A DNA stretch of 52,676 bases from Chryseobacterium gleum (GTDB lineage: Bacteria; Bacteroidota; Bacteroidia; Flavobacteriales_D; Sanyastnellaceae): positions 1 to 52,676 of the forward strand of contig CAMCHP010000012.1 in the NCBI GenBank assembly GCA_945874695.1, in the 5' to 3' direction. A program made the position numbers and the translations under genes. Of the stretch, positions 40,309 through 51,436 are shown piece by piece. Every line of letters begins with the position of its first letter. Within the stretch, counting starts at the first letter, position 1. The notes beneath the pieces are model-generated. The model was not told where the DNA came from and made no database searches. It worked only from the letters and a program-made list of their open reading frames with translations.

Positions 40309-40366
40309 ATACTTCCAAACAAGGGTTTAACCTTTCCCAGATACGTTTGAGTGAGCTGTGCGGTTT

Positions 40367-41932
40367 ATGAGTAAAAGCATTCGTTGGCTACTTTGGTTCT
40401 TGTTTTTACTTCCCGCTTCAACCATACTCTATAAGGTTGTTGTTCTTGATTATTCGTTTTCAAGCATTCTACCAACGGCTGTTTATGAGGTTCAGATTAA
40501 TCTTGACCTCGAGGGATATGGCGATGCTGTATCGGTAGCTACTTTTTTGCCCGATGGGAATGACCGCCAATATTTAATCGACGAATCAACGCAATCAGGT
40601 GCATTTGAAACTGCACTCGTTCGTGGTGCTAGTGGACGAAAAATTGAATGGAGTATTCCGTCATTACAAGGCAAGCAAAGGATCACTTGGCGAGGTAAAG
40701 TGCGGTGTGATGCCGTATCATATATTATAGATAGTGCCCTCTTCGTTCGCGATTCATACCCTCCCTTTGTGCAAAATGAACTGGCGCCAACCGTAACCAT
40801 TCAAAGCACCCACCCTCTGATTTCAGAAAAAGTTGAGGAGTTATGTCAAGGTGAGCATCGGGTGGGAGTAATTCTCGAGCGCTTTCATGCCGCTGTTACC
40901 AATTTAGAGCCTCAAGCATTTTCGGGTACAACAGATGCGCTAACCGCTTTACGTTTGGGTGAAGCATCATGCAACGGTAAAAGTCGCTTGTTTGTCGCGC
41001 TATGCCGAAACAAAGGTATTCCCGCCCGTTTGGTCGGAGGTTTGATTTTGGAGAATGATTCAAAACGCACTTCGCATCAGTGGGCTGAAGTGTATGTTGA
41101 CGGTGTTTGGGTACCTATGGATGGGTTAAACAATCATTTTGCATCGATCCCTTCAAACTACCTAAGGCTCTACACCGGTGATGAAGCGCTCTTCACACAT
41201 ACCGCTAACATTGGCTTCGACTATCTTTTTACAATCAAGAAAGGATTAGAAAGCAACCCAGAACTTGCTTCAGAGCTAAAAGGCAGTTTTTTAAATTCAT
41301 ACCTGATGTGGCAGGCATTTGAAAAAGTCGGCATCTCACTCGCCTTGCTGAAAACCATATTGCTACTTCCGTTAGGCGCGATGATTGTTGCCCTAGCTCG
41401 CAACGTAATCGGTTTGAAGACTTATGGTGTTTTTCTCCCTGCACTCATTGCCATTGCAATCTCCGGAACCGGCTTGGTTTGGGGGCTTTTGGCGTTTACT
41501 GTGGTGATCATCCTCGTTAGCTTAGTACATTTTCCGCTCGAACGCATCGGCCTGTTGTATACGCCAAAGTTGGTCATTATGCTCGTTACGGTTGTGGTTG
41601 CATTTATTGTATTATCAATCGCTGGCATTTCGTTTGGATTCACTGAAATCGCCTATGTAGCTATGTTTCCTGTGGTTGTGATAACAATAACTGCGGAGCG
41701 ATTTGCACGACTTATTGTAGAAGACGGATTCGGAAAGGCGTTGAAAACAACGTTCCAAACATTGATCGTTGTCGTGATGTGTTACTTCAGCATAACCTCA
41801 CGAACAATGGAGGCTGTTTTTCTTGCATTTCCTGAGCTATTTTTGGTAATAACGGGGTGCATGGTGGTGCTTGGTCGCTGGATCGGGTTGCGCGTTATTG
41901 AGTATAAACGTTTTCGCTGGATTGCCCAATGA
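40367..41932 (+). CDS. Transglutaminase-like protein fused to seven transmembrane helices
   Basis: A 521-residue inner-membrane protein of the class annotated as inactive transglutaminase fused to 7 TM helices. An N-terminal membrane anchor at about 5-25 is followed by a periplasmic region. The transglutaminase core carries Cys202 (GEASCNGKSRLFVALCRNKG), His237 (TSHQWAEVYVDG) and Asp252 (VWVPMDGLN), with spacings of 35 and 15 residues as in active enzymes, so the triad looks intact despite the family name. Residues about 320-510 form the multi-helix domain (LLPLGAMIVALARNVIGLKT, YGVFLPALIAIAISGTGLVW). I took the ATG at 40367 over a GTG three codons upstream. It overlaps the ATP-grasp gene by 4 bases; the pairing with such a ligase is known from other phyla. 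Confidence 0.88.
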   Translation: MSKSIRWLLWFLFLLPASTILYKVVVLDYSFSSILPTAVYEVQINLDLEGYGDAVSVATFLPDGNDRQYLIDESTQSGAFETALVRGASGRKIEWSIPSLQGKQRITWRGKVRCDAVSYIIDSALFVRDSYPPFVQNELAPTVTIQSTHPLISEKVEELCQGEHRVGVILERFHAAVTNLEPQAFSGTTDALTALRLGEASCNGKSRLFVALCRNKGIPARLVGGLILENDSKRTSHQWAEVYVDGVWVPMDGLNNHFASIPSNYLRLYTGDEALFTHTANIGFDYLFTIKKGLESNPELASELKGSFLNSYLMWQAFEKVGISLALLKTILLLPLGAMIVALARNVIGLKTYGVFLPALIAIAISGTGLVWGLLAFTVVIILVSLVHFPLERIGLLYTPKLVIMLVTVVVAFIVLSIAGISFGFTEIAYVAMFPVVVITITAERFARLIVEDGFGKALKTTFQTLIVVVMCYFSITSRTMEAVFLAFPELFLVITGCMVVLGRWIGLRVIEYKRFRWIAQ

Positions 41933-42786
41933 AAGCTTGGTGGAGAAAGAGCTACGCCGATGTATTAGGCATCAATGAGCGCAATTTATCTTGGGTATAT
42001 ACACGCAATCCCCGTGCTTTCTTTGAGCTCGCGAATGACAAAGTACTCACTAAAGAGATCCTTGCCGCAGCAAATATCCCGGTCGCCAAACAATTAGCCG
42101 TTATTCAACGTGTTGGAGAAATTGAAGCCGCCTGGGGGGCCATTGACCCCGTTTCATGTGCAATTAAGCCTGCACATGGCAGCGGGGGCGGCGGCATATT
42201 GGTATTGCACCGGGAAAACGCAAGCTGGAAAAACAATGGCGCGGTAGTTAGCGAATCGGCTATTCACAAGCACATAGCAAACATTATTTTCGGTGTCTTT
42301 AGTTTTGGGTCAGATGATGTCGCGCTCATTGAAGAAAAAATAGTTCCGCATGATGCCATTCTGCGGATTTTCAATCAAGGTGTTGCCGACTTGCGGATTA
42401 TTGTGTGCGACAATAGGCCCATTATGGCCATGCTTCGCATTCCGACGCTAAAGTCAGGAGGTAAAGCAAACCTCCATCAAGGGGCTCTTGGTATAGGCGT
42501 TAACATTGAAACTGGCAAAACCACTTCGGCCTTCAATGGTGCGCATTATGTTGAACTTCACCCCGACAGCCAATTTCCATTGACTAATTTTCTCGTTCCT
42601 TACTGGGCTGATTGTCTTGATATCGCGGTCAAAACATCCCAATCGGTGCCCCTAAATTACTTGGGTGTCGATATCGCATTTGATCAGAATCTTGGGCCTC
42701 TCGTTCTCGAAATCAACGTACGTCCTGGTTTGGAGATTCAAAATGTAAATCAACTTGGACTAAAGCGTGTGTTGCCAAAATCATGA
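41929..42786 (+). CDS. Alpha-L-glutamate ligase-like ATP-grasp protein
   Basis: A 285-residue ATP-grasp enzyme of the RimK-related group. The N-terminus ADVLGINERNLSWVYTRNPR with DKVLTKEILAAANIPVAKQL is characteristic. The ATP-binding loop is IKPAHGSGGGGILVL. VADLRIIVCDNRPIMAMLRI, GVDIAFDQNLGPLVLEINVR and PGLEIQNVNQLG contain the metal-binding Glu and Asn. Members are expected to add glutamate or a related amino acid to a carboxylate or peptide C-terminus; the substrate here is unknown. The 4-base overlaps with genes on both sides make co-translation likely. Confidence 0.9.
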   Translation: MKAWWRKSYADVLGINERNLSWVYTRNPRAFFELANDKVLTKEILAAANIPVAKQLAVIQRVGEIEAAWGAIDPVSCAIKPAHGSGGGGILVLHRENASWKNNGAVVSESAIHKHIANIIFGVFSFGSDDVALIEEKIVPHDAILRIFNQGVADLRIIVCDNRPIMAMLRIPTLKSGGKANLHQGALGIGVNIETGKTTSAFNGAHYVELHPDSQFPLTNFLVPYWADCLDIAVKTSQSVPLNYLGVDIAFDQNLGPLVLEINVRPGLEIQNVNQLGLKRVLPKS

Positions 42787-45047
42787 ACCACAAGTATAGC
42801 GCAATACCTTTCCTTATTCTACTCACAATGATCATCATTGTTGTGGTTTGGAGCGATAACTATGCCGAAAAATTGAGCAACCTTCCTCGTTTGGTATACC
42901 TCGGGAACAGCGAGAATTCTCCGAGTGATATGTCATTATGGCAATTTGAGGTAGAGAATGACCCAACAGCATTGGGCGACTTGTTGTCAGATTCGAACTA
43001 TGTTGCTGCTGTTCGTGCCTATGAACAAGAGGCTTGGCCTATGAGCCAACTCTATTTTGAATCGGTTTTAAACAACAATGGTCCTTCGGTTGGCGTTTTT
43101 AACTATTTAGGCCTCATCGCATTGAAAACGAACGAAGCCGCCGAAGCTATTAGGAATTTCAACCTTGCATTGAGCCTCGATGACACCTACAATCCTGCTC
43201 GCCTTAACCTCGCCCTACTTTACAGCAGACTGGAGAATTATACCGCTGCCGACAGCATCTACAACGTGCTTGCACAACGGAGCCCTTTTCATAGTCGATC
43301 TCAAGTAAATCATGGCATCATGCTCTGCCGCATCGGTGAATGGAACCGAGCAAACCAGGTACTTGAGAAGGCCATTCAAATATCGTCGGGCAAACAAAAA
43401 GCAAAAGCTCTGACGTACAGAGGCATGACGTATATCAACATTGCCGATACCCTCTTGGGACAACAAGACTTTCAGGCAGCCATAAACCTCGCCCCAGATT
43501 ACATTCTGCCACGGGTATACTTGGCACTGATTGCCCCAACCGATGAAGAAAGCCTGGTCGAAATAACCAAGGTTATTCGACTCAAAGAATCCTATGCTCC
43601 GGCACATTATTATAAGGGCGTGATTCTCGAACGGCTTGGTCAAAGAGACGATGCTCGACTGGCCTTTGAAAAAGCACTGCAACTCAACCCCAGTGATGCC
43701 GAATTGTCTTCACTTCTCGGCGCATTCTACATCAACAATGATTTGATTGCCGAGGCAGAGCAGTTCTTTAATCTTGTATACGGGCAAGACACCATTGCGC
43801 CCCAAAGCTATTTTTATCGCGCAAAAATAGCTTCGAGGAAAGAAGAACTCAAAGAGGCTATCGATCTCTATCGCAAAGCCATTGAAACAAGCGGCAATAA
43901 TTATGCCGAGGCATACCACAATCTTGGGATTTTGTTGAAGCGCTCAAATAAAACCGATGAAGCCATTGCGGCCTACGAGCAAGCAATCAAGCTTCGACCA
44001 AATTATGAAAGCGCTTGGTATAACTTAGGCTTGGCCTATCGTGCCCAAGCCAGAAATAACGAAGCGATTTCAGCCTATGAAAAGGCAATTCTCATTAATC
44101 CGATTGCTACCAAATCAATGTATAATTTGGCGCTACTCTATGCCGATATAGGGAATAATGACCGCGCAATTGGTTTGTTTGAGAACATTATTGATGTAGA
44201 TCCAGACTATGCTAAAGCCTGGTATAATCTTGGCTTAACTCATCAAAAACAAGAACGCTTCCAAGTGTCGATCGACATTTACGCTCAAATGCTTGAGCGC
44301 TTTCCGAATTATGCCAAAGCCTGGTACAATAAAGCAATTGCACTGAAAGAGCTCGGGTTGTTTGAAGAGTCAATCATCGCCTACGAACGCGCGATTGAAC
44401 ACGAGCCCACCTTTCTGGCCGCCTGGAAAAACCTCGGCGCATTGGAGGCACAACAAGGCAACACAACGCGTGCTGCTGAAGTCTTCAGTCAAGCTGTTGA
44501 TCTCGACCCTACAGACCCTGAAATGCGCTACAATTTGGCTTTGCAGCTCAAAGCCACCGGTGAATTGCGAGAAGCGGCAGTTCAATTAAACCGCGCAATT
44601 AAGATGCGCCCCGATTACCTTAAGGCAATCGAACTGCTTTCAGAGATTGCCCAAGCGCTTAACGACCGAAAACTAGAAACAAAAACCCGTGATTATCTCG
44701 CCGAAATAAAAAACACCCCCGAAGCATGGTATGAACTTGCGCGAGATTTACATAAGACAAAGCAGTTTAGCGAAGCCATAAAACGCTATGAAAAAGCTGA
44801 GGAATTAGGCAAAACCGATGAATGGGTTGCCTATTGGCAGGGAAAAGCCTATGAGGAACTCAATGAAAGTCAACAAGCGCAAAAATTCTACGAAACAGCC
44901 TTGATAAGGAACAAAAAGCACAAATTCTCACTCTATCGCTTGGCTATTTTATATCAAACGACCAACCCATCCCGCGCCCAAGAATTACAGAAAAAACTTG
45001 TTCAATTTCACCCTGAATTTGCACGAGAAAAAGGAATTACGCCATGA
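42783..45047 (+). CDS. Membrane-anchored tetratricopeptide repeat protein
   Basis: A 754-residue protein with one N-terminal membrane helix at about 6-25 (AIPFLILLTMIIIVVVWSDN). Then come at least 14 TPR units, many near-canonical: AEAYHNLGILLKRSNKTDEA, YESAWYNLGLAYRAQARNNE, YAKAWYNLGLTHQKQERFQV and FLAAWKNLGALEAQQGNTTR. There is no catalytic domain. The repeat solenoid probably lies in the periplasm and binds partner proteins or substrate peptides, bridging the inner-membrane transglutaminase-like protein and the outer-membrane barrel encoded next to it; that is inference from position. It overlaps both neighbours by 4 bases. Confidence 0.88.
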   Translation: MNHKYSAIPFLILLTMIIIVVVWSDNYAEKLSNLPRLVYLGNSENSPSDMSLWQFEVENDPTALGDLLSDSNYVAAVRAYEQEAWPMSQLYFESVLNNNGPSVGVFNYLGLIALKTNEAAEAIRNFNLALSLDDTYNPARLNLALLYSRLENYTAADSIYNVLAQRSPFHSRSQVNHGIMLCRIGEWNRANQVLEKAIQISSGKQKAKALTYRGMTYINIADTLLGQQDFQAAINLAPDYILPRVYLALIAPTDEESLVEITKVIRLKESYAPAHYYKGVILERLGQRDDARLAFEKALQLNPSDAELSSLLGAFYINNDLIAEAEQFFNLVYGQDTIAPQSYFYRAKIASRKEELKEAIDLYRKAIETSGNNYAEAYHNLGILLKRSNKTDEAIAAYEQAIKLRPNYESAWYNLGLAYRAQARNNEAISAYEKAILINPIATKSMYNLALLYADIGNNDRAIGLFENIIDVDPDYAKAWYNLGLTHQKQERFQVSIDIYAQMLERFPNYAKAWYNKAIALKELGLFEESIIAYERAIEHEPTFLAAWKNLGALEAQQGNTTRAAEVFSQAVDLDPTDPEMRYNLALQLKATGELREAAVQLNRAIKMRPDYLKAIELLSEIAQALNDRKLETKTRDYLAEIKNTPEAWYELARDLHKTKQFSEAIKRYEKAEELGKTDEWVAYWQGKAYEELNESQQAQKFYETALIRNKKHKFSLYRLAILYQTTNPSRAQELQKKLVQFHPEFAREKGITP

Positions 45048-46288
45048 AAAAACTCATTGCCCTTGTGCTGACCTTTCAGTGCTGCGGGCTTTTCGCTCAA
45101 ACATCGTTTAACCTTGCGGGAAGCTTCGCTACAGGTTTTCAATCGAATGTTTTCAATGCACCAAATATATATGTGCGGCCTCAGGGCGATACGCTCACCA
45201 ATGATAGTCTCTTTGTTAGTGATCAACTTCTGAATATCGCGCTGAATGCGGATCTGAAGTGGAATCGAAAACAAAATTACTTCAGTTGGAAAACCGATTT
45301 CGAACTTGATCGATACGCATCGATCAAGCAAGCCAATAGCACCGAAATCGATTCTTGGCTCAGGTATAGCAGAAAAAAGAAAACGGAAAAGATTAACCCC
45401 AGCGCATACCTCAGATTGAGGTCTTCAAATCGACTCGGATTGAATGTTCTTGGGTCAGAGTTATTAACCCCATTCTCATTTCGCCAAGTTGAACTTGGAG
45501 CTTCTTTGCTTTTCAAAATCTCTGCAGTTTACAATCTTCAAACGCAACTTTCTTACACGTTCAAGGATTACGACAAATGCATCAATTGTGGCATTAACAA
45601 TGAGTCGGTAAGTCTTACCCAGCGTCAATTTGACATTGGAGTGATCCATGAATTTCTTGCCGACAAAAAAAACCGTCGCAAGAAATTTGTCGTCAGCACG
45701 TTGTGGCAAGATCGGAGCTATTTCGATTGGATCAACTATGAGCTGCTCGATCCCAATCGAGGCCCAAATGATGCCGAACCCTTCTTGCCATTCAATCCTA
45801 ATGTAGAATACCAAGCCAGACGTTGGAAGTATCTGATCACAGAGTTCTCTTATAATCTCCCCATTAGTAAAGCAATCGACATCAAACCTCAAATTGAGTT
45901 TACGCGACGTTATGATGTGTCAAACGGAGATTTTGGTAGTCGCCAGTGGAGTGCTGATATCTTCGCTCTGTTGAAAAGCGATTCATGGAGTGGCCGATTC
46001 CGCGCGGGTTACACATTTCGAAACTACACCGATCGTTTAGCTGATCAGGCTGCTGGAACCCCTTTCCCCTTGCTTGTTTACCGATATTTTAGAACAAGTC
46101 TGAGGGTCGAAAAAATACTGGGTAAAAAATTCGCTCTTTGGACAGAAGCGAGTTATACGTCGCGAGAATCTAATACTGATCTCCTAACGACACGGGTACG
46201 GCGAAGCTATACCAATGGAGCGTTCTTTTTCGGTTTGAGGGTTTTCTTAGACGGTAAAATAAATCCGAAAAACAGCAAAACCCCCTAA
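45044..46288 (+). CDS. Probable outer-membrane beta-barrel protein of the operon
   Basis: A 414-residue exported protein with signal peptide KKLIALVLTFQCCGLFAQ. The mature part has many alternating hydrophobic/polar strands with aromatic girdles, such as NYFSWKTDFELDRYASI, YNLQTQLSYTFKDYDK, WKYLITEFSYNLPISKAIDI, GRFRAGYTFRNYTD and FALWTEASYTSRESNTD. It ends FGLRVFLDGKINPKNS, so the last strand is not strictly C-terminal. I do not recognise a family, although the layout fits a 14- to 18-strand barrel. It is the last gene of the overlapping four-gene operon and ends one base before the tRNA-Asn remnants. Confidence 0.8.
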   Translation: MKKLIALVLTFQCCGLFAQTSFNLAGSFATGFQSNVFNAPNIYVRPQGDTLTNDSLFVSDQLLNIALNADLKWNRKQNYFSWKTDFELDRYASIKQANSTEIDSWLRYSRKKKTEKINPSAYLRLRSSNRLGLNVLGSELLTPFSFRQVELGASLLFKISAVYNLQTQLSYTFKDYDKCINCGINNESVSLTQRQFDIGVIHEFLADKKNRRKKFVVSTLWQDRSYFDWINYELLDPNRGPNDAEPFLPFNPNVEYQARRWKYLITEFSYNLPISKAIDIKPQIEFTRRYDVSNGDFGSRQWSADIFALLKSDSWSGRFRAGYTFRNYTDRLADQAAGTPFPLLVYRYFRTSLRVEKILGKKFALWTEASYTSRESNTDLLTTRVRRSYTNGAFFFGLRVFLDGKINPKNSKTP

Positions 46289-46289
46289 G

Positions 46290-46353
46290 CTCCCCCGGTT
46301 GGACTTCAACCAACGACCCTCCCGACAACGTCGGGATGATCTAACCGGCTGAG
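46290..46353 (-). pseudogene. tRNA-Asn remnant A with remodelled anticodon hairpin
   Basis: On the minus strand it matches tRNA-Asn from the D arm (CTCAGCCGGTTAGA) through the variable region, T arm (one change) and the 3' acceptor strand. The 5' acceptor strand is missing. The anticodon arm is replaced by a 7-bp stem TCCCGAC/GTCGGGA with GTT in the loop. It cannot fold a normal acceptor stem, so it is unlikely to be a working tRNA. Confidence 0.85.
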
Positions 46354-46378
46354 AAAATGGCGTTGATATGCTGTAAAC

Positions 46379-46407
46379 AAAAAAGCATCGCGGTTAAACG
46401 ATGCTTT
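46379..46407 (-). terminator. Terminator between tRNA-Asn remnants B and A
   Basis: On the minus strand AAAGCATCG pairs with CGATGCTTT around an 8-base loop, ending in six T. The same hairpin recurs at 46501-46529, so each tRNA-like unit carries its own terminator. Confidence 0.8.
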
Positions 46408-46411
46408 GAAG

Positions 46412-46475
46412 CTCCCCCGGTTGGACTTGAACCAACGAACCTCCCGACAACGTCGGGATGATCTAACCAGCTGAG
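46412..46475 (-). pseudogene. tRNA-Asn remnant B with remodelled anticodon hairpin
   Basis: A second copy 122 bases from remnant A with the same TCCCGAC-GTT-GTCGGGA arm, an intact T arm (GTTGGTTCAAGTCCAAC) and 3' acceptor strand, and no 5' acceptor strand. Remnants A, B and the att copy C lie in register at about 122-base intervals. Confidence 0.85.
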
Positions 46476-46500
46476 AATCTTAAGTTGATATGCCATAAAC

Positions 46501-46529
46501 AAAAAAGCATCGCGGTTAAACGATGCTTT
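46501..46529 (-). terminator. Original terminator of tRNA-Asn, now separated from the gene
   Basis: On the minus strand AAAGCATCG/CGATGCTTT plus six T, directly 3' of the att copy. Before the element inserted, this hairpin would have followed the intact tRNA-Asn gene. Confidence 0.75.
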
Positions 46530-46576
46530 CTAAGCTCCCCCGGTTGGACTTGAACCAACGACCCTCTGATTAACAG
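46528..46576. other. attL-side copy of the 49-bp attachment repeat
   Basis: Identical over 49 bases to 51356-51404. It contains a displaced 3' half of tRNA-Asn (anticodon loop to discriminator) plus 7 flanking bases. Confidence 0.92.
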
Positions 46577-46592
46577 GCATAAAATAATTGTA

Positions 46593-46600
46593 TATCTTTG
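46593..46600 (+). promoter_or_regulatory. Putative -7 box for the integrase
   Basis: TATCTTTG matches TAnnTTTG, 17 bases inside the element from the att repeat and 126 bases before the integrase ATG. Confidence 0.45.
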
Positions 46601-46675
46601 CTTTGTGATTTTACTCAAAAGCTTTGTGTACATAGGGTTTCAGGCGTTATGCGCTTTGTGTATTTTTTTGCAAGT

Positions 46676-46728
46676 GTATGCAAATTTCACCCCTTTGTAT
46701 GCAAATCGTATGCAAATTGTATGCAAAT
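46676..46728 (+). repeat. Four GTATGCAAAT iterons overlapping the integrase start
   Basis: GTATGCAAAT occurs at 46676, 46697, 46708 and 46719, with spacing 21, 11 and 11 bases, i.e. on one face of the helix. The last copy overlaps the integrase ATG at 46727. They look like arm-type binding sites for integrase or an autoregulatory protein. Confidence 0.75.
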
Positions 46729-47998
46729 GAAAACAGACTTAGGACAGCAGGTTTCAGTATCTGTATTTTTTGACACCAGAAGAAAGAAGGCAAACGGTAC
46801 ATACCCGGTGAAGCTCCGAGTTTTTACCTCATCACCCAGAAGACAACAAAAACTCTACCCTACTCGATTCGAGTTCTCAGAAGAAGAGTTTCAAGCTATC
46901 TGGGAAAGCGATCGACCACGCGGCAAAAACAGAGAGCTCAGGGAAGAACTTCAGGCCGTTGAAGCTCATGCGCGTGAAGTTAGCTACCAGATACACCCCT
47001 TTACTTTCGAGGCATACGAAAACAAACTCTTCAGAAAGGTAGGTGAAGCCGCAAACGTTTGCTACCAATACGAAAAACGAATTAAGGAGCTTCACCGAGC
47101 TGGGCAAATCAAAAGCAAACAACTGCATGAAAGCACCCTGAAAACATTCGATGAGTTCACCCAGAGCAAAAAACAAAAGCTTCAGAACTTGACCCTACAC
47201 GCAATTACTGCGGACTGGTTGAACGACTACGAAACATTCATGCTGGAGGGCAAAGGGCGAAGCGCGACCACGGTAGGCATTTATTTGCGGACGCTGAAAA
47301 CGGTTTTTAACGCTGCGATCGAAGAGGGCGAAGTTAGCAGGGAGTTCTACCCATTTGGAAAACGAAAGTACACCATACCCTCAGGGCGCAAAGTGAAGAA
47401 AGCCCTCAGCAAAGAACAGTTGAGAGCCCTATTCAATGCCGAGCCGCTTACACCTGAACAGCAAAAAGCAAAAGACTTCTGGTTCTTTTCATACTCATGC
47501 AACGGTATGAACGTGAAGGACATTGCCCGGATGAGGTTCAAAGACATGGACGAAGAACAGATTCGATTCATACGCGCAAAGACTGAGCGCACTACGAAAG
47601 GCAACCAAAGGCAAATAGTAGCTATTCAGAGCGACTTCACACGAAAAGTAATAGCTGAGCACGGCAACACCAGAAAGAGCCCTCAGCAGCTTGTTTTCAA
47701 TATTCTGAAGGGCAATGAAAGCCCAGAAGAAGAGGTTCGCAAGGTTCAGAATTTCACCCGGTACATAAACCAGCACATGAAGAAGCTCTGTAAGGCATAC
47801 GGGCTACCTGAAGACATTTCTACCTACTGGGCGAGGCATAGCTTCGCAACATTTGCGGTTCAGTCTGGAGCAAGCTTGGAACAGATTCAGGAAAGCTTAG
47901 GCCACGGCAACATAAAAACGACCCAGAACTACTTTGCAGGATTCGACCACGCAGCAAAGAAAAAACTGGCCGCTTCACTTATGAACTTTAACGATTGA
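46727..47998 (+). CDS. Tyrosine-type site-specific integrase
   Basis: A 423-residue recombinase of the Bacteroidota phage-integrase type. An N-terminal arm-binding region (VSVSVFFDTRRKKANGTYPV) is followed by the SAM-like core-binding domain (TADWLNDYETFMLEGKGRSA, TTVGIYLRTLKTVFNAAIEE) and a catalytic domain. The HxxR box reads TYWARHSFATFA, with Tyr in the His position as in many relatives. SLGHGNIKTTQNYF carries the second His and the nucleophilic Tyr. The first catalytic Arg is not in its usual place (SYSCNGMNVKDIARMRF), a variant I recall from this subfamily. The ATG at 46727 was chosen; an upstream GTG would translate the iterons. It acts on the tRNA-Asn att repeat. Confidence 0.93.
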   Translation: MKTDLGQQVSVSVFFDTRRKKANGTYPVKLRVFTSSPRRQQKLYPTRFEFSEEEFQAIWESDRPRGKNRELREELQAVEAHAREVSYQIHPFTFEAYENKLFRKVGEAANVCYQYEKRIKELHRAGQIKSKQLHESTLKTFDEFTQSKKQKLQNLTLHAITADWLNDYETFMLEGKGRSATTVGIYLRTLKTVFNAAIEEGEVSREFYPFGKRKYTIPSGRKVKKALSKEQLRALFNAEPLTPEQQKAKDFWFFSYSCNGMNVKDIARMRFKDMDEEQIRFIRAKTERTTKGNQRQIVAIQSDFTRKVIAEHGNTRKSPQQLVFNILKGNESPEEEVRKVQNFTRYINQHMKKLCKAYGLPEDISTYWARHSFATFAVQSGASLEQIQESLGHGNIKTTQNYFAGFDHAAKKKLAASLMNFND

Positions 47999-48002
47999 AA
48001 CG

Positions 48003-48482
48003 ATGAGCAACGAAATTAAATTCAGCATAGACCGAATTCTAGATGAAGTCAAAGAACAACCGATTGCCGATCAAATAAGAGAACTCAGACGCTATAAGGC
48101 TGAGTTTTTACGCTTACCGCCATTAAGTCAATTGTCATATTTCGAAACTCCTTTCCCAAGGCAGGTTGACATAGAGATTCAACGATTAGAGCACGAAGTA
48201 AGCAACACCCCGAACGTTTTCAAGGTTTCATCTAAGAACGGAGCAAAAAGTGAGCTTTTACAGGTTTTTTATGCACTTCATAAACTGAATCTGATTGAAA
48301 AAAAGGACGGGGGCTTTCCAACACAACATGAGTTCTTAACAGAGCTCGGTAAATTCTTAGGTGAAGACTGGATTAAGTCAAGCGTACTTTTAAGCCAGCG
48401 GAGAACAGATACAACCGTCGAGAAACAGAACGCAGTTTTCGAGGGCTTACAAGCCAAATGGCACAACAAAAAAACAACTTAG
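48003..48482 (+). CDS. Hypothetical element protein, faintly RteC-like
   Basis: A 159-residue predicted helical protein starting 4 bases after the integrase stop. The C-terminal half (GAKSELLQVFYALHKLNLIE, then PTQHEFLTELGKFLGEDWIK and KQNAVFEGLQAKW) resembles the pattern of the RteC C-terminal domain found in Bacteroidota mobile elements, where RteC relieves repression of excision. The resemblance is by eye and weak. The N-terminal half (SIDRILDEVKEQPIADQIRE) is unknown to me. A role in regulating excision or integration would suit its place between integrase and HTH genes. Confidence 0.6.
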   Translation: MSNEIKFSIDRILDEVKEQPIADQIRELRRYKAEFLRLPPLSQLSYFETPFPRQVDIEIQRLEHEVSNTPNVFKVSSKNGAKSELLQVFYALHKLNLIEKKDGGFPTQHEFLTELGKFLGEDWIKSSVLLSQRRTDTTVEKQNAVFEGLQAKWHNKKTT

Positions 48483-48554
48483 ACTAAGCGAACCTAAGTG
48501 CTAGCCACAAAGCAAAGCAAAACCTTTGCCCTGAACCCACAAAAACAGGGCTTT

Positions 48555-48893
48555 ATGGAAAATCCATTTTCGCAAATCAATCAACGGTTGAGCAACCTCG
48601 AACAGCTCATTTCTGAACTTGCTGAACAGAGCAAACAGGCCGCCACCAATGAGAGCAACGACTTTCTAACCATTGAAGAGGCTGGAGAACTTTTGCACTT
48701 GTCAAAGGCCACCATTTACAGTAAGTGCAGCCTCAGAGAACTACCCTACATGAAACGAGGGAAACGGCTTTTCTTCAGCCGTGAAGAACTACTGGCCTAC
48801 CTGAAGACCGGACGAAAGAGAACCCTCGATGAGATTCAAGCGGATGCCGCTGGCAACCTCATCAAAAAAGAAGGAGGGCAGCGCAATGATTAA
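48555..48893 (+). CDS. Helix-turn-helix excisionase-like protein
   Basis: A 112-residue protein. An N-terminal coiled coil (QINQRLSNLEQLISELAEQS) is followed by a winged-helix excisionase/MerR-type DNA-binding domain: DFLTIEEAGELLHLSKATIY, SKCSLRELPYMKRGKRLFFS and REELLAYLKTGRK. This layout is standard for the small HTH proteins of Bacteroidota integrative elements that act as recombination directionality factors or regulators. The ATG at 48555 replaces a longer GTG frame. The end overlaps the start of the ATPase gene by 8 bases. Confidence 0.85.
   Translation: MENPFSQINQRLSNLEQLISELAEQSKQAATNESNDFLTIEEAGELLHLSKATIYSKCSLRELPYMKRGKRLFFSREELLAYLKTGRKRTLDEIQADAAGNLIKKEGGQRND
48876..48881 (+). 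promoter_or_regulatory. Unusually strong Shine-Dalgarno before the replication ATPase
   Basis: The sequence AAGGAGGG falls around 48871-48879, some 7-10 bases before the ATG at 48886. Almost no other gene in the window has an SD of this quality, so it supports the internal ATG as the start. Confidence 0.55.
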
Positions 48894-50025
48894 CAGCAGC
48901 CACCCCCCTGAAGAGCAGCATAAAGATACGGATATTTCACCAAAGGAGCTTCTGAACAATGTGAGCAACCTTGCAAACGGCCACCGCGAAGAGCTGAGGA
49001 TAAAACTCGAAGGGCTGGAAGTAAAAGCGAGCGACGAGATACGACCACCGGAAACAGCTTGGATTCAAGATATAGAAGGAAGAGAGGCCGTAATTCTAGG
49101 CACGCTGGGCAATTTTTCAATGATTATAGGCAAAGCGAAAAGCCGAAAATCTTTCTTTCTAAACATAGCCGTTTCAGCAGTTCTCAGCGATGACAAGCTA
49201 ATGAACCAATTCAAAGGATGCCTACCCGCTGGGAAAAACATAGTTCTCTATTTCGACACCGAGCAAAGCAAATACCACGTTCAAAAGGCATTGCAACGCA
49301 TTTGCAGACAGATACACGTTGAAGAGCCTAAGAGCCTCAAAGTATTTGGACTTCGCAGCGAACCACCATCTGAGCGTTTGCAGCTGATCGAATACGCGAT
49401 CACAAGCACCGAGAACTTAGGTTTCGTAGTAATTGACGGAATAAAAGACCTCATCACTTCGATAAACGACGAAGCCGAGGCCACAATGATCGCAAGCAAA
49501 CTTTTGAAATGGACTGAAGAACAAAACATTCACATTGTTACAGTTCTTCACCAGAATAAAGGCGACAATAATGCACGCGGCCACATTGGTACAGAGTTGG
49601 TGAACAAGGCTGAAACGGTATTGTCAGTTTCAAAACACGAAAAAGACAAGGAAATTTCAACGGTTGAGGCCGAGCAATGCCGCAACCGAGAACCTGAACC
49701 GTTTGCATTTCGAATAGTGAATGAATTACCCGCACTCATTGAAGATTTCGAGTTCAAGCAAATCACAAGCCGCGAGAAAACCGCCTTGCAGGAATTACCC
49801 ACATACAGACAGCGCACAATTTTGCACACCGTTTTCTCAAAGAACGAAAGCTATATGTACGGCGAACTGGTTCGGCAAATCAAACTAACCGCTGAACATG
49901 AAATAGGCGAAAAGTTTGGAGAGAACCGCGTGAAACATTTCATAACGCATTGCAAGAATGAGGGCTGGATATTGCAGCAAGGCGAGAAAAAAGCGTACAC
50001 CCTTGCATCAATAGTTAACGAGTAG
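48886..50025 (+). CDS. RepA-like AAA ATPase (putative replicative helicase)
   Basis: A 379-residue RecA-fold ATPase. The variant Walker A, MIIGKAKSRKSFFLN at about residue 75, and Walker B-like GFVVIDGIKDLI are typical of the RepA/AAA_25-type ATPases of plasmids and Bacteroidota elements. VLYFDTEQSKYHVQKALQRI and IVTVLHQNKGDNNARGHIGT fit the sensor and Arg-finger regions. A C-terminal winged-helix-like part follows (IGEKFGENRVKHFITHCKNE). It likely unwinds the element's origin. It overlaps the HTH gene and is followed by a palindrome-rich spacer before the primase-like gene. Confidence 0.82.
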   Translation: MINSSHPPEEQHKDTDISPKELLNNVSNLANGHREELRIKLEGLEVKASDEIRPPETAWIQDIEGREAVILGTLGNFSMIIGKAKSRKSFFLNIAVSAVLSDDKLMNQFKGCLPAGKNIVLYFDTEQSKYHVQKALQRICRQIHVEEPKSLKVFGLRSEPPSERLQLIEYAITSTENLGFVVIDGIKDLITSINDEAEATMIASKLLKWTEEQNIHIVTVLHQNKGDNNARGHIGTELVNKAETVLSVSKHEKDKEISTVEAEQCRNREPEPFAFRIVNELPALIEDFEFKQITSREKTALQELPTYRQRTILHTVFSKNESYMYGELVRQIKLTAEHEIGEKFGENRVKHFITHCKNEGWILQQGEKKAYTLASIVNE

Positions 50026-50123
50026 ATGACGGTTTAGTTTAGGGCGTACTATACGCCCTTAAACCGTAAACCGATACTCATTCACAGTTTACTAAACTAG
50101 TTTAACCCATTAAACTGAAAGCA
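50026..50123. other. Origin-like palindrome cluster
   Basis: A 98-base AT-rich spacer with nested palindromes. One is a long hairpin at 50029-50067: ACGGTTTA pairs with TAAACCGT and AGGGCGTA with TACGCCCT, with a GTTT bulge. Then come AGTTTACTAAACT (50086-50098), AAACTAGTTT (50094-50103) and an outer CAGTTTA/TAAACTG (50085-50117). It lies between the ATPase and primase genes. A single-strand or double-strand replication origin, or a regulatory site, would fit. Confidence 0.55.
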
Positions 50124-51122
50124 ATGAATTTTCGTTTCAACTTAGAGCAAGGCAGCAAAAAGCACCATTGCCCCGGATGCGGAAAGAAACGTTTCGTCCG
50201 GTACGTTAACAGCTCCACAGGTGAATATTTGCAGGAGCAATTTGGACGCTGCGACAGGGAGGCAAACTGCGGCTACCACCTGAAGCCCGAAAAAGACATT
50301 GAACCCTCACAGACGTACAAACCTCATCCGGTAGCGAAAGATGTTTTCTACCCCGCTGAAGTATTGACAGCCACGCGGCTGAACTTCATGCAGAACACCT
50401 TTCTGGAGAACCTGACCACGCGCATACCGTACCCATTGCCACCAGATGAGGTTCGAGAGGTTGCAACGATGTACCAAACGGGTAGCATAACGAGGCCGGG
50501 CTTCATGCAGGGAGCAGTTACTTTTCCTTTCATAGACGAACGAGGCCGCGTTCACGCTATCCAAGTGAAGCAATTCGACGAAAGCAACCATACAACCAAA
50601 ACAAACGCGGTTCACGCAATGATTAAGCACCGGATGAAGACCACCGGGCAACCAATACCGAACTGGCTTCAGGAATATGAAAAGCAGGAACGAATATTTC
50701 GATGCCTATTCGGAGCGCACTTGCTAAAGCAATACCCCAGAAACCCGGTTGCAATAGTTGAAGCCCCGAAAACCGCGTTCATTGCCTCGCTCTATTTTGG
50801 AAGCCCTGAAGCTTCAGAAAAGAACTTTCTTTGGCTGGCAGCTTACAATCTGAGCAGCCTGAAGCCTTACAAGTGCAGACCGCTGGCAGGGCGCAAAGTT
50901 GTGCTATTTCCTGACCTTTCAGAAGACGGGTTCGCGTTCAAGAAATGGAGCTCAGACGCTGCAAACCTCAACCAAAAAATACCAGATGCCTCGTTCTACG
51001 TTTCTGACTTGCTCGAACGCAAGGCAACCACCGCGATGAGGTTGAAGAGTGCAGACCTTGCAGACTACCTTTGTGAGATGAACTGGAAGCTCTTTCGAAG
51101 CACCAATTCGAACCAGAGATAA
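50124..51122 (+). CDS. DUF6371-like zinc-finger/primase-like replication protein
   Basis: A 332-residue protein. The N-terminal zinc finger uses CPGCGKKRF and a second Cys pair in FGRCDREANCGYH, as in CHC2-type primase fingers. The middle domain recognises PGFMQGAVTFPFIDERGRVH. A toprim-like fold follows: NPVAIVEAPKTAFIASLYFG supplies the first acidic residue and RKVVLFPDLSEDGFAFKKW the second acidic cluster. Such DUF6371-type proteins accompany RepA-like ATPases on Bacteroidota elements. It probably primes or assists replication from the adjacent palindrome cluster. Confidence 0.8.
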   Translation: MNFRFNLEQGSKKHHCPGCGKKRFVRYVNSSTGEYLQEQFGRCDREANCGYHLKPEKDIEPSQTYKPHPVAKDVFYPAEVLTATRLNFMQNTFLENLTTRIPYPLPPDEVREVATMYQTGSITRPGFMQGAVTFPFIDERGRVHAIQVKQFDESNHTTKTNAVHAMIKHRMKTTGQPIPNWLQEYEKQERIFRCLFGAHLLKQYPRNPVAIVEAPKTAFIASLYFGSPEASEKNFLWLAAYNLSSLKPYKCRPLAGRKVVLFPDLSEDGFAFKKWSSDAANLNQKIPDASFYVSDLLERKATTAMRLKSADLADYLCEMNWKLFRSTNSNQR

Positions 51123-51291
51123 ACCGAACGAGCTCCACAAAAAACACCTCGAAAAATTCACGCGCGATTTTTTTTGAGAGTAGCACCGATGTACCACATA
51201 GAGCGACGACCAAAGATCGACCCCTACCCCCCTGTCAAGTTACTTCAATCACAACGACCAAACAGGCTGAACAGGCCGCTAAGTCTGGTTT

Positions 51292-51313
51292 ATCGGGCAA
51301 ATATCGGGCAAAT
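51292..51313 (+). repeat. Two tandem ATCGGGCAAAT repeats near the attR side
   Basis: A perfect 11-bp tandem duplication. It shares the GCAAAT core and 11-base period with the GTATGCAAAT iterons at the other end of the element, as expected for integrase arm sites. Confidence 0.65.
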
Positions 51314-51314
51314 G

Positions 51315-51351
51315 AAAAAGGGCTTCAAACGGTTAAACGTCTGAAACCCTT
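51315..51351 (-). terminator. Terminator of the tRNA-Asn gene supplied by the element
   Basis: On the minus strand AAGGGTTTCAGACG pairs over 14 positions (two wobbles) with CGTTTGAAGCCCTT around TTTAAC and runs into five T, just 3' of the tRNA and inside the element boundary. Confidence 0.85.
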
Positions 51352-51355
51352 GTGC

Positions 51356-51404
51356 TTCTAAGCTCCCCCGGTTGGACTTGAACCAACGACCCTCTGATTA
51401 ACAG
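51356..51404. other. attR-side copy of the 49-bp attachment repeat
   Basis: It forms the 3' half of the intact tRNA-Asn gene. It ends exactly at the edge of the anticodon loop (51404) and is identical to 46528-46576. Confidence 0.92.
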
Positions 51405-51436
51405 TCAGATGCTCTAACCGGCTGAGCTACAGGGGA
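51363..51436 (-). tRNA. tRNA-Asn (anticodon GTT)
   Basis: A 74-base cloverleaf on the minus strand. The acceptor TCCCCTG pairs with CGGGGGA (one wobble). It has D stem GCTC/GAGC, anticodon stem TCTGA/TCAGA with loop CTGTTAA (GTT at 51400-51402), T arm GTTGG-TTCAAGT-CCAAC and discriminator G. CCA is not encoded. The 3' half is contributed by the inserted element and restores an intact gene. Confidence 0.97.

Follow-up and report, generated by a model that had tools for sequence, protein, structure and literature searches.

A conserved four-gene unit that spans both membranes, a sister of the Pseudomonas rlo operon, and what it might make and export

Why should a transglutaminase-like membrane protein, an ATP-grasp ligase, a TPR protein and an outer-membrane barrel be encoded by a single run of overlapping genes? 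In the window (the whole stretch of 52,676 nucleotides that was analysed) these four genes lie on one strand at 40367-46288. A check of the open reading frames bears out what the initial annotation had read there: all three junctions are 4-base overlaps, each of them ATGA, and the four genes are co-translated. Shortly 5' of the ATG of gene 1, at 40342-40349, stands TACGTTTG, which resembles what we take to be the Bacteroidota -7 promoter box. (Numbers preceded by L and G are our own handles for loci and genomes.)

40367-41932, + strand: gene 1, transglutaminase-7TM (TG-7TM) protein, 521 aa (open reading frame)
41929-42786, + strand: gene 2, RimK-like ATP-grasp ligase, 285 aa (open reading frame)
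42783-45047, + strand: gene 3, anchored TPR protein, 754 aa (open reading frame)
45044-46288, + strand: gene 4, outer-membrane beta-barrel, 414 aa (AlphaFold model and family-specific profile)

Gene 1 runs from an N-terminal TM helix through a transglutaminase-like domain, predicted to be periplasmic, to the 7TM_transglut membrane domain. Its Pfam matches are PF14402, PF01841 and PF14400: Transglut_core scores 62 bits and 7TM_transglut (PF14402) 142 bits, past its cut-off of 25; the NCBIfam RloB model gives 130.9 bits, under its 900-bit cut-off. Three residues are presumed to be catalytic:

40970-40972, + strand: codon of Cys202; Cys in 92 of 96 aligned rows
41075-41077, + strand: codon of His237; invariant in the alignment
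41120-41122, + strand: codon of Asp252; a residue outside the scan patterns

Among the 96 aligned TG rows (the window is entered twice) the triad reads Cys-His-Asp in 80 and Cys-His-Cys in 10. Conservation of the Cys and the His is partly built in, since the scan for relatives used motifs around both residues; the loci found by PF14402 only (L020-L034, L166-L170), and so free of the motif scan, contain the same gene set. The AlphaFold model (pLDDT 92) places C202 at the start of a helix and H237 and D252 on adjacent strands, as the fold predicts: gene 1 has the Cys-His-Asp site in a papain-like fold that marks the transglutaminase-like cysteine enzymes. Judged from sequence, this protein-cutting or protein-joining site is apparently a working one, and the label "inactive transglutaminase" seems misapplied to a large clade of its family. 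(A side observation: Cys replaces the triad Asp, in the motif WVPFCPTN, in ten TG proteins, mostly of Myxococcota: L083, L092, L101, L102, L103, L105, L107, L109, L112 and L114.)

Among solved structures 3isr fits the TG model best (Z 25.2, with an rmsd of 2.8 across 252 residues); its annotation reads putative cysteine protease. The next matches, at Z near 9-10, are TgpA (9.8), TG2 and LapG (9.1). Such neighbours suggest that the operon could be a periplasmic protease module, in which a LapG/TgpA-like cysteine protease processes an exported protein, the ligase yields a regulatory signal, and the TPR protein and barrel form the export site. We consider this quite improbable: the related loci have no recurring neighbour gene that would encode a dedicated substrate, and the ligase is in places fused to the TG-7TM protein (see below), which argues for a shared chemical path. 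Gene 1 shares its fold and its Cys-His-Asp site with TgpA, a membrane-tied transglutaminase-like enzyme of the periplasm, and with 3isr, but differs from both in that the TG domain is fused to 7TM_transglut and partnered with an ATP-grasp ligase.

That ligase, the product of gene 2, matches Pfam PF14397 (ATPgrasp_ST) with 206 bits and TIGR02291 with 248.1 bits, the latter under the NCBIfam cut-off of 314 bits. In the numbering of E. coli RimK it retains K100, K141, R189, R203, N213, H215, D248, E260 and N262, which we take to be the ATP/Mg residues of the RimK structure. All nine are kept in 66 of 66 ligases of the window's type and in 15 of 15 of the RloC type (of which more below); the N-terminal domain of RimK is absent from both. 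L-glutamate is most likely what gene 2 would ligate, a specificity argued from the family alone. There is accordingly a likeness in ATP-grasp residues to the polyglutamylation of ribosomal protein S6 by RimK/RimB, from which the window's ligase differs in lacking the RimK N-terminal domain and in being tied to partners in the inner and outer membranes.

Gene 3 encodes at least 12 TPR stretches (Pfam TPR models), predicted to be periplasmic, behind an N-terminal membrane anchor at about residues 7-24 that is also present in relatives across phyla. Gene 4 matched no named Pfam family; in its AlphaFold model (mean pLDDT 86.6) a signal-like helix at the N-terminus leads into a 16-strand barrel. 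Its fold matches are porin-like (Z about 19) and dominated by general and substrate-specific porins; exporter barrels surface only in Foldseek, which returns generic barrels with low TM-scores, PgaA (4y25), BcsC (6tzk) and AlgE among them. The presumed inward residues, considered as possible signs of an Arg/Lys-lined channel for a polyanion, are only slightly basic, averaging 25 basic against 21 acidic. TPR repeats together with a 16-strand barrel are what the operon has in common with the exporters PgaA, BcsC and AlgK-AlgE, and the two parts are joined in one protein in Spirochaetota (see below); unlike these exporters, it has no glycosyltransferase (polymer synthase) among its four proteins as seen by Pfam, and general porins match its barrel equally well or better.

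Do these genes belong together? Scanning contigs for TG relatives found 211, of which 80 were kept. They come from about ten phyla (Bacteroidota, Pseudomonadota, Nitrospirota, Myxococcota, Spirochaetota, Campylobacterota, Krumholzibacteriota, Calditrichota, Thermodesulfobacteriota and Fibrobacterota), although single phylum assignments may be wrong because most of the scanned relatives are metagenome bins. In 62 loci the contig leaves 5 kb or more on the 3' side; among these the ligase is found in 61, the barrel in 54, the TPR gene in 49, and all three in 45; the barrel counts are lower bounds, since Spirochaetota barrels are recognised solely by profile-profile comparison. Four loci of the window's family (L025-L028) have the identical four genes in identical order, and four of another family (L030-L032, L034) have the order TPR-barrel-TG-ligase. 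PF14402 is itself rare (at E <= 0.001, in 7 of 394 genomes sampled in the phylum, 8 of 396 in the class and 6 of 101 in the family); within the family the barrel profile is found in 6 of 6 genomes with TG-7TM versus 1 of 95 without (Fisher p 5.5e-9, in a test that treats species as independent). Genes 3 and 4 are thus co-conserved with genes 1 and 2 in relatives, the contrary of which the initial annotation had named as its refutation, and the same set recurs across phyla, which places it beyond chance. By sequence comparison the four make up a single conserved unit, and one that spans both membranes, as had been proposed for them at the outset.

Several Bacteroidota lineages (L020, L023, L024, L044, L111) have no TPR gene. 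The Cys is gone from L021, L024 and L029, where ligase and barrel remain; the TPR protein and the Cys are therefore not always needed. In L021 and L112 the ligase is fused to the TG-7TM protein, placing the C-terminus of the 7TM domain beside a cytosolic ATP enzyme. In Spirochaetota a barrel with N-terminal TPR-like repeats lies beside the TG gene (hhalign aligns it with the barrel family at E 2e-12; the TPR part scores under Pfam cut-offs). L172 is a barrel-7TM-ligase variant that has no TG domain. A third variant, at L171:3174-7422, is a RimB-RimK-barrel-7TM-ATP-grasp cluster, its 7TM protein likewise without a TG domain; it sets a barrel beside polyglutamate genes and furnishes a second point of likeness to RimK/RimB by joining that pair to barrel, 7TM and ligase. 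The fusions and the L171 cluster support a single trans-envelope machine. (In four Bacteroidales loci, L038, L039, L040 and L042, a membrane spermidine-synthase-like gene lies 3' of the barrel gene; the one at L038:13872-15494 overlaps it.)

What is the machine related to? The Rlo operon of Pseudomonas aeruginosa encodes RloA, RloB and RloC: RloA is a secreted retropepsin that cuts polyglutamate in stretches of eight or more glutamates; deleting rloB or rloC suppresses the loss of RloA; the phenotypes concern hypo-osmotic tolerance, cell shape and biofilm; and no export partner is known (PMC12239564). The suppression fits RloB and RloC making or presenting an acidic peptide. The window's operon is a sister of the Pseudomonas rlo operon, with consistent differences. 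The two share a homologous TG-7TM gene and an adjacent RimK-like ATP-grasp gene in which the same ligase residues are kept. In the RloB type the transglutaminase is dead, there is a secreted retropepsin, and TPR and barrel genes are absent; the window's type has an intact Cys-His-Asp, TPR and barrel genes, and no RloA in the locus.

Several lines of evidence separate the two: 1) The RloA profile is found in 19 of 19 RloB-type stretches versus 0 of 100 of the window's type (six of the 100 being duplicates). The window's own genome has no PF05618 retropepsin, and one is found anywhere in the genome in just 5 of 27 genomes of its type. 2) The TG triad is lost in every RloB-type row examined. 3) In the phylum of G828, a gammaproteobacterium, PF14402 occurs in 70 of 397 genomes with bimodal scores: 62 lie above 280 bits (RloB type), six at 167-186 bits (window type), and two near 100 bits, in which the TG domain is absent. 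4) The RloB-type neighbourhoods that were fetched have RloA upstream, the triad lost, and no TPR or barrel; those of the window's type have the triad kept, no RloA, and ligase, TPR and barrel following where the contig permits. 5) In a TG tree (a quick search, with long branches) the two clades stand apart with full support. The genes that lie directly upstream of the operon in the gammaproteobacterial loci L166-L169 were considered as retropepsins and rejected: these 185-187-aa genes are not RloA. They encode a membrane protein; the copy that was scanned, L166:4511-5068, gives a weak PepSY_TM hit.

The papers searched contain no description of the four-gene form, though an earlier mention in Iyer et al. 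2009, which the Rlo paper cites, is possible. The RloB-RloC pair, which in Pseudomonas is linked to biofilm, to osmotic tolerance and to sensitivity to antibiotics, thereby gains a second form found in nature. This form has a partner in the outer membrane and a catalytic site that is apparently live, and it makes the role of the pair directly testable.

The Rlo comparison also brings up the strongest competing account: tagging of the envelope, with nothing exported. The ligase and the TG-7TM protein would extend acidic peptide tails or attach them to periplasmic or outer-membrane proteins, crosslinking being possible for transglutaminase folds, and the barrel would be the protein that receives the tag, an anchor, or else a porin with a tuned opening, which would provide osmotic tolerance as in Rlo. 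The Rlo phenotypes and their want of a known export partner (PMC12239564) suit this account, as does the resemblance of the barrel to general and substrate-specific porins. On the other hand, barrel and TPR genes are missing from RloB-type loci, and the barrel remains a partner even after the TPR gene or the Cys has been lost. We think it unlikely, if less so than the protease module.

The reading that we tentatively put ahead of the others, short of holding it probable, is a trans-envelope machine, sister to Rlo, for synthesizing or modifying a peptide and exporting it. In the cytosol the RimK-like ligase would extend a peptide or carrier by amino acids, L-glutamate being the most likely one; the 7TM domain, docked on the ligase, would take the chain through the inner membrane; in the periplasm the cysteine site would cut the chain or join it by transpeptidation, a job that in Rlo would fall to secreted RloA; the TPR protein, held by its anchor, would bridge the periplasm; and the barrel would release or display the product. 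The glutamyl-type product that the initial annotation suggested is plausible, given the RimK positions kept and the tie between rlo and polyglutamate cleavage. It is probably so, although we infer the product itself and likewise the direction of its transport. A more specific version, possible but somewhat more doubtful, is an undescribed, phylum-spanning machine in which a glutamyl-type polypeptide is made non-ribosomally in the cytosol and leaves through a dedicated outer-membrane channel, the TG domain replacing the Rlo protease. If true, it would do for a polypeptide what the TPR/barrel secretion systems do for polysaccharides.

Has the operon been acquired, as was first suggested from two 60-base samples? 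The samples were correctly counted (38.3% G+C in the TPR gene and 60.0% in radA) but are weak evidence, since 6.6% of the window's 60-base tiles are at or below 38%. Whole genes tell more: at third codon positions the four have a G+C content (GC3) of 0.42-0.46, and all 28 upstream genes tested are at or above 0.468. Synteny speaks against acquisition despite this low GC3. In the window the order is barrel, inserted element, tRNA-Asn, pfkB; in G394, of another genus of the same family, it is (L188) response-regulator gene, barrel, tRNA-Asn, pfkB. G394 is the sole genome of the family with a barrel (L188:7149-8498, so strongly diverged that it is about 25% identical to the window's) but no TG, and has most likely lost the TG, ligase and TPR genes; the genes upstream in L188 (508, 1197 and 249 aa) stand ahead of the operon in L026 and L028 as well. 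In G423 (L035), too, a tRNA-Asn lies downstream of the operon. This and the shared barrel-tRNA-Asn-pfkB place indicate that the locus is ancestral in the family, and recent acquisition is rejected. That the four are unrelated genes brought together by chance or by a mobile island could draw on the low GC3 and on patchiness in the family (the 6 of 101 genomes above), yet it is contradicted by conservation over about ten phyla, two gene orders and fusions, as well as by the syntenic place in another genus, and we find it barely credible.

A mobile element does lie next door:

46289-46321, + strand: first truncated tRNA-Asn 3' end, abutting the operon's last stop codon
starts 46289, 46411 and 46534: the truncated tRNA-Asn 3' end in three copies, one every 122-123 bases
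46289-51436: integrative element with a tyrosine recombinase gene and with HTH, AAA and zinc-ribbon/DUF6371 genes, reaching as far as the intact tRNA-Asn
51362-51436: intact tRNA-Asn

An integrase element enclosing the operon was rejected, there being no tRNA-Asn end to the left of the operon. The tRNA-Asn end at 46289-46321 belongs to the neighbouring integration site and not to the four-gene system; the mobile element is the operon's neighbour, inserted at tRNA-Asn. A sensor/response-regulator pair precedes the barrel of G394, and the whole operon in relatives.
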